Shown piece after piece: positions 34,947-40,235 of a stretch of 40,235 bases of DNA. Origin of the DNA: Candidatus Gastranaerophilales bacterium. GTDB lineage: Bacteria; Cyanobacteriota; Vampirovibrionia; Gastranaerophilales; Gastranaerophilaceae. The notes under the pieces are model-generated. The model had not been told where the DNA came from and made no database searches. It saw only the letters and a list, made by a program, of their open reading frames with translations. A program made the translations under genes and the position numbers. The DNA is taken from positions 1 to 40,235 of the forward strand of contig CALUWB010000013.1 of the NCBI GenBank assembly GCA_944324375.1, given 5' to 3'. Numbering within the stretch: position 1 is the stretch's first letter; every line of letters starts with the position of its first letter.

Positions 34947-36173
34947 TTATTTAACAATCATTTCTGACAATAATTTTTCAGCTTTTTCTCTTTGTGGATC
35001 TTTATGTGCAATAAAATCTTTTTCGGTGTATTTAACAATGTAATCAGGAGCTATACCTTTTTCATTAATATCAGATCCATTTGGTGTTAAATATTTTGCT
35101 ATTGTAAGATTTAAACCTGTTGAATTTGGTAATGGTATAATTCTTTGAACCATTCCTTTCCCAAAAGTCTTTGTTCCAACAAGAACTGCTTTATGATGGT
35201 CTTTTAATGCTCCTGATAAAATTTCGCTTGCACTTGCACTTGCTCCATCTACTAATATCACAACAGGTTTATCAATTATAATTGAGCTATTCTGAGCTTT
35301 AATATTTTCAACTTTTCCGTCTCGTGAAACAATGTTAACGATTGTTCCTTTGTCTAAAAACATATTAGCAACAAAAATAGCATTTGCTAATAACCCTCCT
35401 GTGTTTCCTCTTAAGTCTAGTATTAGCCCTTTGGTATCTTTTGTCTTTTCTAATGCTGTTATAAATTCTGTAGGTGTTGATGTTGCAATAAAACTTGATA
35501 TCTGTATGTATCCAATATCCTTTTTTACAGAAGATTTAACAGATTCAATTTTTATTGATTTTCTTTTAACAGATTTTATAATCTTTTTGTTTTTTCTCTG
35601 AATTTCAAGTGTAACTGTTGAACCTTCTTTCCCTCGAACTAAGCTTGCAACATCTGCAATGTTCATACCACTAACATTTTTACCATCAACTTTAATTATT
35701 ATATCGTTTGCTTTTATTCCTGCTTCTTTCGCTGGAGTATTATCTAATACACTAAATACAATAATTTTACCGGCATCATTCATTATATTTACTCCAATAC
35801 CTGAAATTTTAGATTCAATAGAACTATTTTGTTCTGCATATTCTTTTTTATTCAAGTATTTAGAATAATCATCATCTAAACTTGCAATCATAGTATCTAT
35901 TGCAACTTTAGCATCTTCATCCGTTTTAATTTTTCCTTTGTAATGTTTTTTCCAATAAGACCAATCTTGAGAGTTTAGAGTTGAATCATAAAAACCAGAA
36001 TTAATTTCTTTCCAAGTTCTCTCAAATAGTTTTTGTGGTTTTATTTGAGTTTTATTTGTCAATGTATCAGGGTTAATATTTGGGGGACCAGCTAAAAAAC
36101 TTACAAATAGCTGGTTCGCAATAAATAATATTAATATTGTTAATATGAAAATGAAACCTTGTTTTTTTATCAT
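34947..36173 (-). CDS. ctpA: C-terminal processing serine protease (S41, CtpA/Prc family)
   Basis: A 408-residue periplasmic protease anchored by an N-terminal hydrophobic segment (~7-27). A PDZ domain (~120-200, ISGIGVNI...DNTPAKEAGIKANDIIIKVDGKNV) is followed by the S41 core with RGNTGG, nucleophile Ser314 in the SASASE segment and Lys339 in TFGKG, spaced 25 residues as in characterised family members. It trims or degrades envelope proteins after recognising their C-termini. In cyanobacteria CtpA processes photosystem D1, which would not apply in a non-photosynthetic relative. ATG 36173 lacks a Shine-Dalgarno site; TTAAAT ends 6 bases upstream, a weaker leaderless candidate. The gene is followed by uvrC after 18 bases and preceded by a secreted HExxH protein. 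Confidence 0.92.
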   Translation of the reverse strand: MIKKQGFIFILTILILFIANQLFVSFLAGPPNINPDTLTNKTQIKPQKLFERTWKEINSGFYDSTLNSQDWSYWKKHYKGKIKTDEDAKVAIDTMIASLDDDYSKYLNKKEYAEQNSSIESKISGIGVNIMNDAGKIIVFSVLDNTPAKEAGIKANDIIIKVDGKNVSGMNIADVASLVRGKEGSTVTLEIQRKNKKIIKSVKRKSIKIESVKSSVKKDIGYIQISSFIATSTPTEFITALEKTKDTKGLILDLRGNTGGLLANAIFVANMFLDKGTIVNIVSRDGKVENIKAQNSSIIIDKPVVILVDGASASASEILSGALKDHHKAVLVGTKTFGKGMVQRIIPLPNSTGLNLTIAKYLTPNGSDINEKGIAPDYIVKYTEKDFIAHKDPQREKAEKLLSEMIVK

Positions 36174-36971: not shown

Positions 36972-37619
36972 TTAATTAAATAGTTTTTCAATTAATTCAA
37001 TATCTTGAGGGTTATCTATTTCAAATAGTGTTTTATCATTCATTTCCCAAAAATCTACAGGAGGAGTTATTCTGCATTGTGATTTTAAAATATTTTCTCT
37101 TGATGAAATATAAAATGCTCCATTTTCAATATAATATCCATCCCAATCTTGTCTTCTGGGTCTGTTTTGTGGGTTATAATTTAATGGCTCTCCATTTACA
37201 CCCCATATAAATTGAGAACGTTTTACAACAGAAATCAATGATTTCTTATCGGATTTCAAATATTTTTCTAATGCTTTATTTATATCTACAGCTGTTGTTA
37301 GTGGTGATGTTGCTTGTAAAAATACTACATTATCAAATTTATAATTTTCGCAAAATTCTAATAATGCAGTTTCAGATGTTGCTGTATCTGAGGATGAATA
37401 TTCACTTCTTGGTATTACTTCAATTTTATTAAATCCAAATTCTTCTACTGTTTTTTTTATATCTTCCCCATCTGTTGATACATATACTTTATCTAAATTT
37501 GAAACTTGTGCAGCTAATGTTGTCCAGTATATTAATGGTTTATTATTTACTGGACTTATATTTTTATTAATAATTGATTTGCTTCCTTTTCTTACAGGAA
37601 TAAAAGCTACATTATACAT
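36972..37619 (-). CDS. Acylneuraminate/nonulosonate cytidylyltransferase (NeuA family)
   Basis: A 215-residue enzyme that activates a nine-carbon keto acid (sialic, legionaminic or pseudaminic acid) with CTP. The nucleotide-binding start FIPVRKGSKSIINKNI (R-x-GSK...KN), VYVSTDGEDI, FLQATSPLT and the late ENGAFYISSREN segment match the family. The usual RGGSKG is RKGSKS here. The gene begins inside the end of hpt (8-base overlap) and is the only sugar-activating gene in the series; synthase and transferase genes are not in the window. A KdsB-like or other cytidylyltransferase role is possible but less likely given the motifs. It implies a nonulosonic-acid-containing surface glycan. Confidence 0.85.
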   Translation of the reverse strand: MYNVAFIPVRKGSKSIINKNISPVNNKPLIYWTTLAAQVSNLDKVYVSTDGEDIKKTVEEFGFNKIEVIPRSEYSSSDTATSETALLEFCENYKFDNVVFLQATSPLTTAVDINKALEKYLKSDKKSLISVVKRSQFIWGVNGEPLNYNPQNRPRRQDWDGYYIENGAFYISSRENILKSQCRITPPVDFWEMNDKTLFEIDNPQDIELIEKLFN

Positions 37620-38145
37620 CTACATAACCTATATATGGAATATTACGATAAAAGCCTTCGAAGTCTAAGCCATAGCCTACTAAAAATTTATCATCAACAA
37701 TAAAACCAGAAAAATCAGCATCTACATCAACAACTCTTTTTGATTTTTTGTTTAATAGTGAGCAAAATTTTGTAGTTTTTGTTTTAAAATTGTGCCCAAT
37801 AAAATCTAATAAAAATTTAGCAGTATGACCTGTATCGATAATATCTTCTACTATTAGTACATTTTTATCATTTACATCTGGTAAAGATAAATTTACAGCC
37901 TTAACTTTTCCTGAGGAAGAATAATTTGAACCATAACTAGATAATCTAATAAATTCCATTTTTAAAGGCATTGTTAAATGTTTTACTAAATCAGTGAAGA
38001 ACATAACAGAACCTTTAAGTACACATACTGCAAAAATTTCTTCTCCATTATAATGTTTGTTTAGTTCTTCTGCTAAATCTTTTATCCTTTTTTGAAGATC
38101 TTCTTCTGAATATAAAACATGTATATCATCAGGTGTTATTATCAT
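37612..38145 (-). CDS. hpt: Hypoxanthine(-guanine) phosphoribosyltransferase
   Basis: A 177-residue purine-salvage enzyme that makes IMP or GMP from the free base and PRPP. The PRPP-binding motif VLIVEDIIDTGHTAKF (96-111), the CVLKGSVMFFTDL loop and the base-specificity segment DKFLVGYGLDFEGFYRNIPYIG are intact; length is normal. ATG 38145 overlaps the tilS stop (ATGA, 4 bases), the usual coupled tilS-hpt arrangement. Its end overlaps the next gene by 8 bases. In many bacteria ftsH follows; here a nonulosonate cytidylyltransferase takes that place. Confidence 0.95.
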   Translation of the reverse strand: MIITPDDIHVLYSEEDLQKRIKDLAEELNKHYNGEEIFAVCVLKGSVMFFTDLVKHLTMPLKMEFIRLSSYGSNYSSSGKVKAVNLSLPDVNDKNVLIVEDIIDTGHTAKFLLDFIGHNFKTKTTKFCSLLNKKSKRVVDVDADFSGFIVDDKFLVGYGLDFEGFYRNIPYIGYVDV

Positions 38146-39476
38146 AATTTTTTACCTCTCAAACTTATTTTATGTGTTGGTTTATCTGTAACTTGAATTT
38201 TATTACTTAAACCAATTCCTGCAACCCAAAGAACTTCATTATCTTTGCATAATAAAATTAAATCATCTTTTTTATGTTGAGGGACTGATTTAGAAATTAA
38301 ATATTTTTTTAATTTCATACTTCCTGTCATACCTAAAGGATTAATAATATCTCCATCCCTTCTTGTTCTTAGTGTTAAATCTAAATCAATATCACCAAGA
38401 TTTATAAATGCAGTATAAGAATTATCATCTGGAAATTCTTCAATATTTTCTCCTGCGTATGTTGAAATTTCAAAGATTTTATTTCCTATTTCATAAGTAC
38501 CTTCTAGTCTAACTAAAATTTCATCTTGAACTTTTTCAGTTTGAGCAATAATTTCTATAATTCTAGAACTTACATATAGCCATAAACCTTTAGTTAGTGA
38601 TGTTTTAACGCCACTATTTGATGATATATTATCATTTATAAATTCATACAAATTATAAATTTTTTCAGAATCGTAATCAATATTATATGATGTTACTAAA
38701 TCATATAATAATCTTCGTTTTACAGGTTCAGATAATGCAAGATAATTAGGAGTTAATATACTCGCATCTTGCATTACTGCAGACTTTACGTATTCCAGGT
38801 ATTCATCAATAATACTTATTTCATCTGTTGCAACTTTTGATAATGAGACTATAGAATCTATCGCATTTTCGTTAATTTCTTTTGCTAATGGTAATAACTT
38901 GTGTCTTATAAAATTTCTTTTATATTTTGTATTCTCATTTGATGAATCATTATTTGGAATTAAATTATTATCTGCGCAGTATGAATCAATTTCATCTCTT
39001 GTTATATCTAATAGTGGTCTATATATGTAATCTCTTTTTTCGGCAATACCTTTTAACCCTTTTACTCCTGTGCCTTTTATTATTCTATATAAAACAGTTT
39101 CGGCATTGTCATTTTTATTATGCGCAGTTATTAATCCATCAGCATTAAATTCTTTTATTGCTTTATCAAAAAAATCATATCGCATTGCTCTTGCGACTGC
39201 TTCTGATTGTTTCATATTAAGAGATGCTGTTTTAGTATAAAAAGTAATATTTCTATCTTCACAAAATTTTCTACAAACATCTTGTTCTTGTTTTGACTCT
39301 TCTCCTCGCCAATTATGATTGAAATGTGCTGCGATTAATTTTATATTTGTCGTATTTTCTAATTTATATAAGATATCTAAAAGACACATTGAATCATGTC
39401 CACCAGAAAATCCAATAATAAGTTTCTTATTATAAAGATTATGCTTATTTAGAAAATATAAAATTTTATCTTTCAA
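38142..39476 (-). CDS. tilS: tRNA(Ile)-lysidine synthase
   Basis: A 444-residue PP-loop ATPase that converts C34 of tRNA-Ile(CAU) to lysidine so that it reads AUA codons, which are frequent in this AT-rich sequence. The PP-loop SGGHDS is at 24-29; HFNHNWRGEES, ITAHNKNDNAETVLYRIIKGTGVKGLKGI and YRPLLDITRDEIDSYC follow, then the C-terminal TilS domain (RTRRDGDIINPLGMTGSMKLKKYLISKSVP). TTG 39476 is the first codon at the family N-terminus, 2 bases after the stop of the Clp-N gene, with AAGAGA about 10 bases upstream, so translation is probably coupled to that gene. No nearby ATG fits. Confidence 0.96.
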   Translation of the reverse strand: MKDKILYFLNKHNLYNKKLIIGFSGGHDSMCLLDILYKLENTTNIKLIAAHFNHNWRGEESKQEQDVCRKFCEDRNITFYTKTASLNMKQSEAVARAMRYDFFDKAIKEFNADGLITAHNKNDNAETVLYRIIKGTGVKGLKGIAEKRDYIYRPLLDITRDEIDSYCADNNLIPNNDSSNENTKYKRNFIRHKLLPLAKEINENAIDSIVSLSKVATDEISIIDEYLEYVKSAVMQDASILTPNYLALSEPVKRRLLYDLVTSYNIDYDSEKIYNLYEFINDNISSNSGVKTSLTKGLWLYVSSRIIEIIAQTEKVQDEILVRLEGTYEIGNKIFEISTYAGENIEEFPDDNSYTAFINLGDIDLDLTLRTRRDGDIINPLGMTGSMKLKKYLISKSVPQHKKDDLILLCKDNEVLWVAGIGLSNKIQVTDKPTHKISLRGKKL

Positions 39477-39478
39477 AA

Positions 39479-40235
39479 TTATTCAATCTCTTTTAATATA
39501 CCATATTTAATTTCAACAGCATCGACACCAAGTTGTTCTAAAATTTTCATAGCGAGTGCTGATGGATCTGCTGTAATAGCAAGTAACAAATCTTCTGATG
39601 CAATTCTATCTCTATTTTCTTTTTTTGCTAGTTCCCATGCTCTTTCAAGAACAGCTTTAGCTCGTTTAGTGAAAACGATTTCGCTATCAAAATAGTCATT
39701 ACCATAACCTAATTGAGATTCTATGATTTTTCTTGCATCTTGCAATGTTATCTCTAATTTATTTAAAACTCTAGCTCCAACACCAGCACCTTCTGAAATT
39801 ATTCCTAAAAGAAGCATTTCAGTTCCAACTACTTTTTTCCCGATTCTTCTTGCTTCTTCTTTGGCTAACTTAAGTATAACAAGTGTTTCTGGCATTTGTT
39901 TTTCAATAGGTTTTATAATTGCATTGATTAAATCTTCTTCTTTAACATTTAATTGTTCAAGAACTTCATAAGCAACCCCTTTTTTACTTTTTAAAATCCC
40001 TAAAGCTAAATGTTCAGGAAGAACCTTTGATGAACCTAATTCTTTTGCTATTTGAAGAGCTGTACTCATTGCAACAAATGCTTTTGGAGTGAAAACTACT
40101 CTTTTTGAATCGTATTCAGCAGTTCTTGAACTGATTGTCTTTAAGTGTTCATCAAAACTTGCTGAGGTTACACCGAAACTTTCAAAGATTTTTGATAAAT
40201 TAGAATCAGAATCTTCTAAAATAGACGCTAAGATT
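39479..40235 (-). CDS. Multi-repeat Clp-N domain protein without AAA+ domain (partial)
   Basis: The reading frame enters from the right edge and ends at 39479, giving at least 251 residues. It contains the tail of one Clp repeat (ILASILEDSDSNLSKIFESFGV), then three full repeats: FTPKAFVAMSTALQIAKE..., LVILKLAKEEARRIGKKVVGTEMLLLGI..., and FTKRAKAVLERAWELAKKENRDRIASEDLLLAI.... This pattern is two tandem double Clp-N modules, the part of ClpC/ClpA that binds adaptors and substrates. The stop comes right after the last repeat, with no Walker motifs or AAA+ module, and tilS starts 2 bases later. An internal ATG at 40069 is not the start. It may act as an adaptor, decoy or chaperone related to ClpC, comparable in idea to plant ClpT proteins. 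The N-terminus is outside the window. Confidence 0.85.
   Translation of the reverse strand, partial: ILASILEDSDSNLSKIFESFGVTSASFDEHLKTISSRTAEYDSKRVVFTPKAFVAMSTALQIAKELGSSKVLPEHLALGILKSKKGVAYEVLEQLNVKEEDLINAIIKPIEKQMPETLVILKLAKEEARRIGKKVVGTEMLLLGIISEGAGVGARVLNKLEITLQDARKIIESQLGYGNDYFDSEIVFTKRAKAVLERAWELAKKENRDRIASEDLLLAITADPSALAMKILEQLGVDAVEIKYGILKEIE

Follow-up and report, generated by a model that had tools for sequence, protein, structure and literature searches.

Is a run of Clp N-domain (Clp-N) repeats that ends without an AAA+ motor a real protein, and if so, what might it do? The question is raised by the last gene of a 40,235-nucleotide stretch of DNA (the window), which is one complete contig (G000:C13:1-40235) of a genome from the Gastranaerophilales, non-photosynthetic gut relatives of cyanobacteria. 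An open reading frame (ORF) on the minus strand, at 39479-40234, remains open at its 5' end in the window, and the contig stops at 40235. Because the contig ends inside this gene, which we call ClpN6, only the last 251 residues, spanning four Clp repeats, are visible.

A Clp-N gene at a contig end

The gene and its downstream neighbors were laid out as follows:

39479..40234, minus strand: last 251 residues (195-445 of the full-length protein) and stop of ClpN6, a poly-Clp-N protein without AAA+; relatives are 442-470 aa
40148..40234, minus strand: second half of Clp repeat 3 (module 2), truncated where the contig stops; 17.8 bits
39914..40060, minus strand: Clp repeat 4 (module 2); 42.6 bits
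39707..39865, minus strand: Clp repeat 5 (module 3, ClpC-NTD-like, with the Glu of VGTE kept); 41.4 bits
39488..39634, minus strand: Clp repeat 6 (module 3); 24.1 bits
38142..39476, minus strand: tilS (tRNA-Ile lysidine synthase); Pfam ATP_bind_3 and TilS_C on the 444-aa orthologue
37612..38145, minus strand: hpt (hypoxanthine phosphoribosyltransferase-type); Pribosyltran on the orthologue

As a whole, the visible piece matched Pfam Clp_N (PF02861) over four stretches (E=2.9e-30, 104.6 bits). Searched repeat by repeat, three repeats exceeded the family cut-off of 20.7 bits (42.6, 41.4 and 24.1 bits), with repeat 3 falling just under it (17.8 bits) because it is cut by the contig end. The clean stop reported ahead of tilS in the initial annotation is a TAA, separated by 2 bases from the start of tilS at 39476. 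Downstream of it, no AAA+ sequence was found in any frame; tilS and then hpt occupy that position, overlapping by 4 bases, and the earlier proposal that the three genes are laid out as one operon is supported. Histone-fold matches that appeared in the Pfam scans were set aside as chance similarity of helical repeats, being below the cut-off wherever a cut-off was shown. Further downstream of hpt, the window encodes a probable nucleotidyltransferase-type protein (36972-37619, named from sequence) and an S41 C-terminal processing protease with a PDZ domain (34947-36173, identified via the orthologue at locus L042).

Six repeats in three double modules

Relatives reveal the true start of the gene: their complete ORFs are 442-470 aa long and contain six Clp repeats, arranged as three double modules, with no further domain. 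A free-standing tandem Clp-N protein without a motor, as originally suggested, is therefore what the family consists of, with Clp_N matched in 65/65 aligned members (178.8 bits for the reference, above the Pfam gathering score) and AAA in 0/65. The earlier count of at least four repeats is correct for the visible piece, but the whole protein of ~445 aa has six. Relative to ClpC, both AAA+ modules and the M-domain are missing, and the ORF simply stops at ~445 aa.

In the aligned relatives, module 1 covers residues 1-141, followed by a linker (~142-160), module 2 (161-308) and module 3 (309-445). The AlphaFold2 (AF2) model has a mean pLDDT of 83, with the linker poorly predicted; modules 2 and 3 are joined by a nearly continuous helix, and module 1 is set off by the flexible linker. 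The nearest solved structures are ClpC N-domains, led by 5gui (1.3 A over 136 columns) and followed by ClpC NTD complexes with cyclic peptides, MecA and phosphoarginine. The best-matched module superposes at 1.1-1.5 A on many ClpC N-domain structures. The protein is probably cytosolic.

Conservation and distribution

ClpN6 was present in 53 of 57 sampled Gastranaerophilales genomes, counting the window's own, with the stop, length and AAA-less architecture recurring; the four genomes without it were G009, G040, G047 and G053. It was also found in every genome of the window's family in a sample of the class. Other orders of the class gave matches only at ClpC-level scores (up to ~160 bits, over module 3) or via other Clp_N proteins, and in Cyanobacteria proper the search likewise matched only ClpC or other Clp_N proteins. 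Most of the best 80 named matches carried the label Candidatus Gastranaerophilales or Melainabacteria, many of them coming from animal guts, and we take the few other labels (for example, Heliobacteriaceae and Acinetobacter) to be misassignments. Between close relatives dN/dS was 0.026-0.060, a range that leaves out the comparison with L019, which was out of register; ClpN6 is under strong purifying selection.

These patterns bear on whether the gene is a truncated ClpC or a product of assembly or sequencing error. The gene is indeed cut by a contig end in the window's assembly, but the identical stop and length recur in dozens of independent genomes with no AAA+ sequence downstream, an intact ClpC sits on another contig of the same genome and dN/dS is only 0.03-0.06. 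With recurrence, a separate intact ClpC and low dN/dS ruling it out, we assign this explanation a vanishingly small probability; ClpN6 is real and conserved. A mobile or defense origin was also rejected: no PADLOC model for anti-phage defense matched at E<=0.01, and plasmid matches were weak (~30% identity over ~440-640 bases, one module's worth), with no tandem protein among the matches listed. The literature that we searched contained no study of Clp proteins in the Gastranaerophilales lineage and no description of ClpN6.

Operon and neighborhood

In the core family, ClpN6 lies in an operon with the order standalone ClpX-type zinc finger, ~530-aa protein, ruvX, DUF1292, ClpN6, tilS and hpt. 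Median gaps range from -13 to 14 bases (-1 base between ClpN6 and tilS), and this tight spacing suggests a single transcript. ClpN6 was found with tilS at 63 of the best 80 named loci, the remainder being contig ends or deeper clades.

Such a layout might mean that ClpN6 acts outside the Clp system, in translation or the modification of tRNA, together with TilS and the ruvX-DUF1292 operon. However, in the deeper clades (L052-L061 and L129-L140) ClpN6 stands alone, away from tilS, so the linkage is not essential to its function, and housekeeping genes such as tilS and hpt are typical passengers. Nor did we find a fusion of the two proteins: long open frames at L144 and L147 (884 and 877 aa) proved to be separate ORFs, with the ClpN6 TAG stop followed directly by a tilS GTG start at L144 and likewise two ORFs at L147. 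We consider a TilS-linked role very improbable. By the same token, housekeeping-type expression, as predicted from the operon, is a reasonable guess in the core family alone, since the deeper clades lack the tilS linkage.

The first gene of the operon encodes a standalone ClpX-type C4 zinc finger (PF06689) of ~80-110 aa without AAA+ (in relative G003, L042:6884-7174). It was found across the order, including in genomes without ClpN6, and most of 38 genomes have both this protein and a full ClpX, which retains its own zinc finger. In the window's genome it is located on another contig (G000:C33:1039-1140), as would be expected if an assembly gap splits the operon. The co-occurrence of a detached zinc finger and ClpN6 in one operon is suggestive, and the operon may conceivably be a dedicated control unit for Clp proteolysis, in which the motorless zinc finger and the triple N-domain jointly replace ClpS-like adaptors and route substrates to ClpX and ClpC, although we hold this to be rather unlikely. 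The conserved ~530-aa protein encoded next (L042:7178-8770 in G003; AF2 pLDDT 86.5) had no Pfam, PADLOC or PDB sequence match, no NCBIfam match over the cut-off and no significant PDB fold match.

Origin of the modules and their pocket residues

Module 3 is the most ClpC-like, sharing 41% identity with the organism's own ClpC NTD over 133 residues (E=3e-36), compared to 27% for modules 1 and 2. It is also the most conserved, with mean column identities of 0.57, 0.70 and 0.73 for modules 1, 2 and 3, respectively. A tree of 125 modules left many of its deeper forks unresolved and brought several long branches together; in it, modules 2 and 3 each formed one well-supported clade, and module 1 formed one group with weak support. 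Together with the conservation, these separate groups indicate that the arrangement of three modules goes back at least to the origin of the order. We propose that duplication of Clp N-domains, with loss or lack of the motor, gave rise to ClpN6. In G009, one of the genomes without a full ClpN6, a lone 143-aa single-module ORF (L211:1264-1695, minus strand) has 19 best matches that are all module 1, so this module appears able to persist alone.

The activity of ClpC is controlled via NTD residues Thr7, Glu32, Glu106 and Lys85, as well as via a hydrophobic groove, and its resting state is held by contacts of the NTD to the M-domain and AAA1 that involve Thr7, the Glu32/106 pockets and Lys85 (PMC12583610). 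Module 1 retains the equivalents of all four: Thr6 in 74/74 relatives, Glu31 in 71/74, Glu105 in 73/74 and Lys84, at the Lys85 position, in 90% or more. In module 3, Glu333 is present in 74/74 and K387 (the Lys85 equivalent) is invariant, the Thr7 equivalent is lost and the Glu106 equivalent is Glu in just 23/74. By inspection, the organism's own ClpB N-domain carries the same Thr/Glu/Lys/Glu set as module 1, so the set does not single out ClpC ligands, and such residues may be common to Clp-N repeats in general. A decoy specifically for phosphoarginine was not supported, given the variable Glu106 equivalent of module 3 and the presence of the module 1 pocket residues in ClpB. Inspection of the alignments for the cyclomarin-contact residues F2, F80 and E89 found no single module with all three: module 3 has the F80 and E89 equivalents (F382 and E391) and lacks F2, and module 1 has F79 and mostly F2, with the E89 position mostly Lys.

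The retained module 1 positions could mean that ClpN6 regulates the assembly of ClpC (or ClpB) directly, its modules docking on the M-domain and AAA1 surfaces that the unfoldase's own NTD uses at rest and thereby shifting the balance of inactive and active assemblies. Against this, the same positions occur in the ClpB NTD, a separate protein must compete with a tethered NTD and one carrier of ClpN6 (G218, below) has no detectable ClpC, though two ClpB-like proteins remain. We therefore judge direct control of assembly unlikely.

Clp partners in ClpN6 genomes

The window's genome encodes its own ClpC (829 aa, NTD plus AAA+) on contig C65 and a ClpB on contig C22, and ClpC is present in nearly all carriers of ClpN6. 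We identified no known adaptor. ClpS was found in 0/38 genomes with working controls. The search for the McsB family was empty, but the control genomes were silent too, among them Bacillus subtilis, which is known to have both ClpC and McsB and was also silent for Clp_N; the empty search therefore does not show that McsB is absent.

The exception regarding ClpC is genome G218 (99% complete, 10 contigs), which has an intact ClpN6 at G218:C1:250814-252160. No ClpC orthologue was detected there, only two ClpB-like proteins; the closest matches to ClpC in it share 51-53% identity, the level of ClpB, whereas a relative's true ClpC matches at 87%. This is a single genome, in which an assembly gap is possible, but nothing else hints as strongly that the role is not exclusively ClpC-based.

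G218 would fit if ClpN6 were a general ATP-independent holdase or client scaffold that works independently of ClpC. The N-domain groove of ClpB/Hsp104 binds unfolded proteins, module 1 also matches ClpB/Hsp104 N-domains and G218 keeps ClpN6 with ClpB-like proteins as its only Hsp100s. However, the strongest and most conserved module, module 3, is ClpC-like. We view a ClpC-independent holdase as unlikely; the activity itself would be compatible with the binding of ClpC ligands that we consider next, the two not being exclusive.

A putative binder of ClpC N-domain ligands

On homology and analogy, we tentatively favor the view that ClpN6, working without ATP, binds ligands of the ClpC N-domain at multiple sites and either competes with ClpC for them or supplies it with them. 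A soluble protein with three ClpC/ClpB-type N-domains in a row would bind the kinds of ligand that the ClpC NTD binds, namely unfolded segments, adaptor proteins and possibly inhibitory peptides, at several sites at once. By buffering, competing for or pre-concentrating these ligands, it would set the amount that reaches ClpC-ClpP. On this model ligands would be shared with ClpC, and the effect on ClpC may be to inhibit or to assist it. The roles put forward in the initial annotation (capture of substrates or adaptors, regulation of ClpC and action as a decoy) all fit ClpN6 as putative roles.

Supporting this reading, each module is homologous to ClpC/ClpB N-domains, module 1 retains the regulatory positions of the ClpC NTD, and the motorless protein ClpC2 binds a ligand of the ClpC1 NTD and protects ClpC1 (PMC10030653), with ClpC2 and ClpC3 sharing a site and competing (PMC10864484). 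Gene linkage adds no direct support, because ClpN6 adjoins tilS rather than clp genes. Counting against a role based on ClpC ligands, G218, a real counter-hint, keeps ClpN6 without a detectable ClpC, module 3 no longer has the Thr7 equivalent and has Glu at the Glu106 position in a minority of relatives, the residue set of module 1 recurs in ClpB, and no known adaptor was identified.

Relation to other motorless Clp-N proteins

The motorless Clp N-domain proteins known from mycobacteria (ClpC2 and ClpC3) and plastids (ClpT) have a single module. ClpN6 shares its fold and repeat with the ClpC NTD (PDB 5gui, 2y1r and 5hbn), but has three tandem modules and neither AAA+ nor M-domain, and its module 3 lacks the leading MFERFTE segment. 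Like ClpN6, ClpC2 and ClpC3 are homologues of the ClpC N-domain without a motor, and have been proposed to act as a competitor or sponge for ligands (PMC10030653; PMC10864484). ClpC2, however, has one C-terminal module after a non-homologous N-terminal part, and binds its own promoter and represses its own transcription; in ClpN6, Clp-N begins at residue 1, there are three modules and no other domain, and the gene lies inside an operon. The best reading of these comparisons is that ClpN6 may work like mycobacterial ClpC2/ClpC3 without being a member of that group.

Chloroplast ClpT1, ClpT2 and ClpT4 are motorless double Clp-N accessory proteins of the Clp system, and ClpN6 could similarly be an accessory factor of the ClpP core, sitting on the peptidase ring or aiding its assembly and competing with the unfoldase. 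Profile searches matched 4y0b, 4y0c and 7eko, and 4y0b was recovered as a fold match at rank 49; ClpT1 also binds Hsp100 partners (PMC4243950). But ClpT proteins are restricted to plants and algae and have one module, compared to three in the bacterial ClpN6, and their match is far weaker (51 bits versus 165 for the ClpC NTD). A ClpT-like function thus appears improbable.

Detached Clp-N proteins are a recurrent theme in the class. In family f8, motorless poly-Clp-N ORFs of 619 and 523 aa lie just upstream of clpC (L192:2772-6528), and an 829-aa motorless ORF has about five modules (L196:2654-7791); in a third family, a 142-aa single-module ORF lies just upstream of clpC (L193:4076-4504). These proteins share Clp-N modules without AAA+ with ClpN6, but differ in the number and order of modules, show no tilS context and are not supported as its orthologues in the module tree. 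The position of the L192 and L193 ORFs beside clpC favors a Clp-related role. Counts of Clp_N repeats per genome were 6-27 in f8 (genomes of ~3-8.5 Mb), 7-13 in the window's family and 2-5 in other families outside the order.

Compared to the single-module proteins known so far, ClpN6 is an order-wide bacterial family with three modules per chain and strong conservation. It would make the question of whether detached N-domains can set the specificity of AAA+ proteases testable in another lineage, a sister group of the photosynthetic cyanobacteria.
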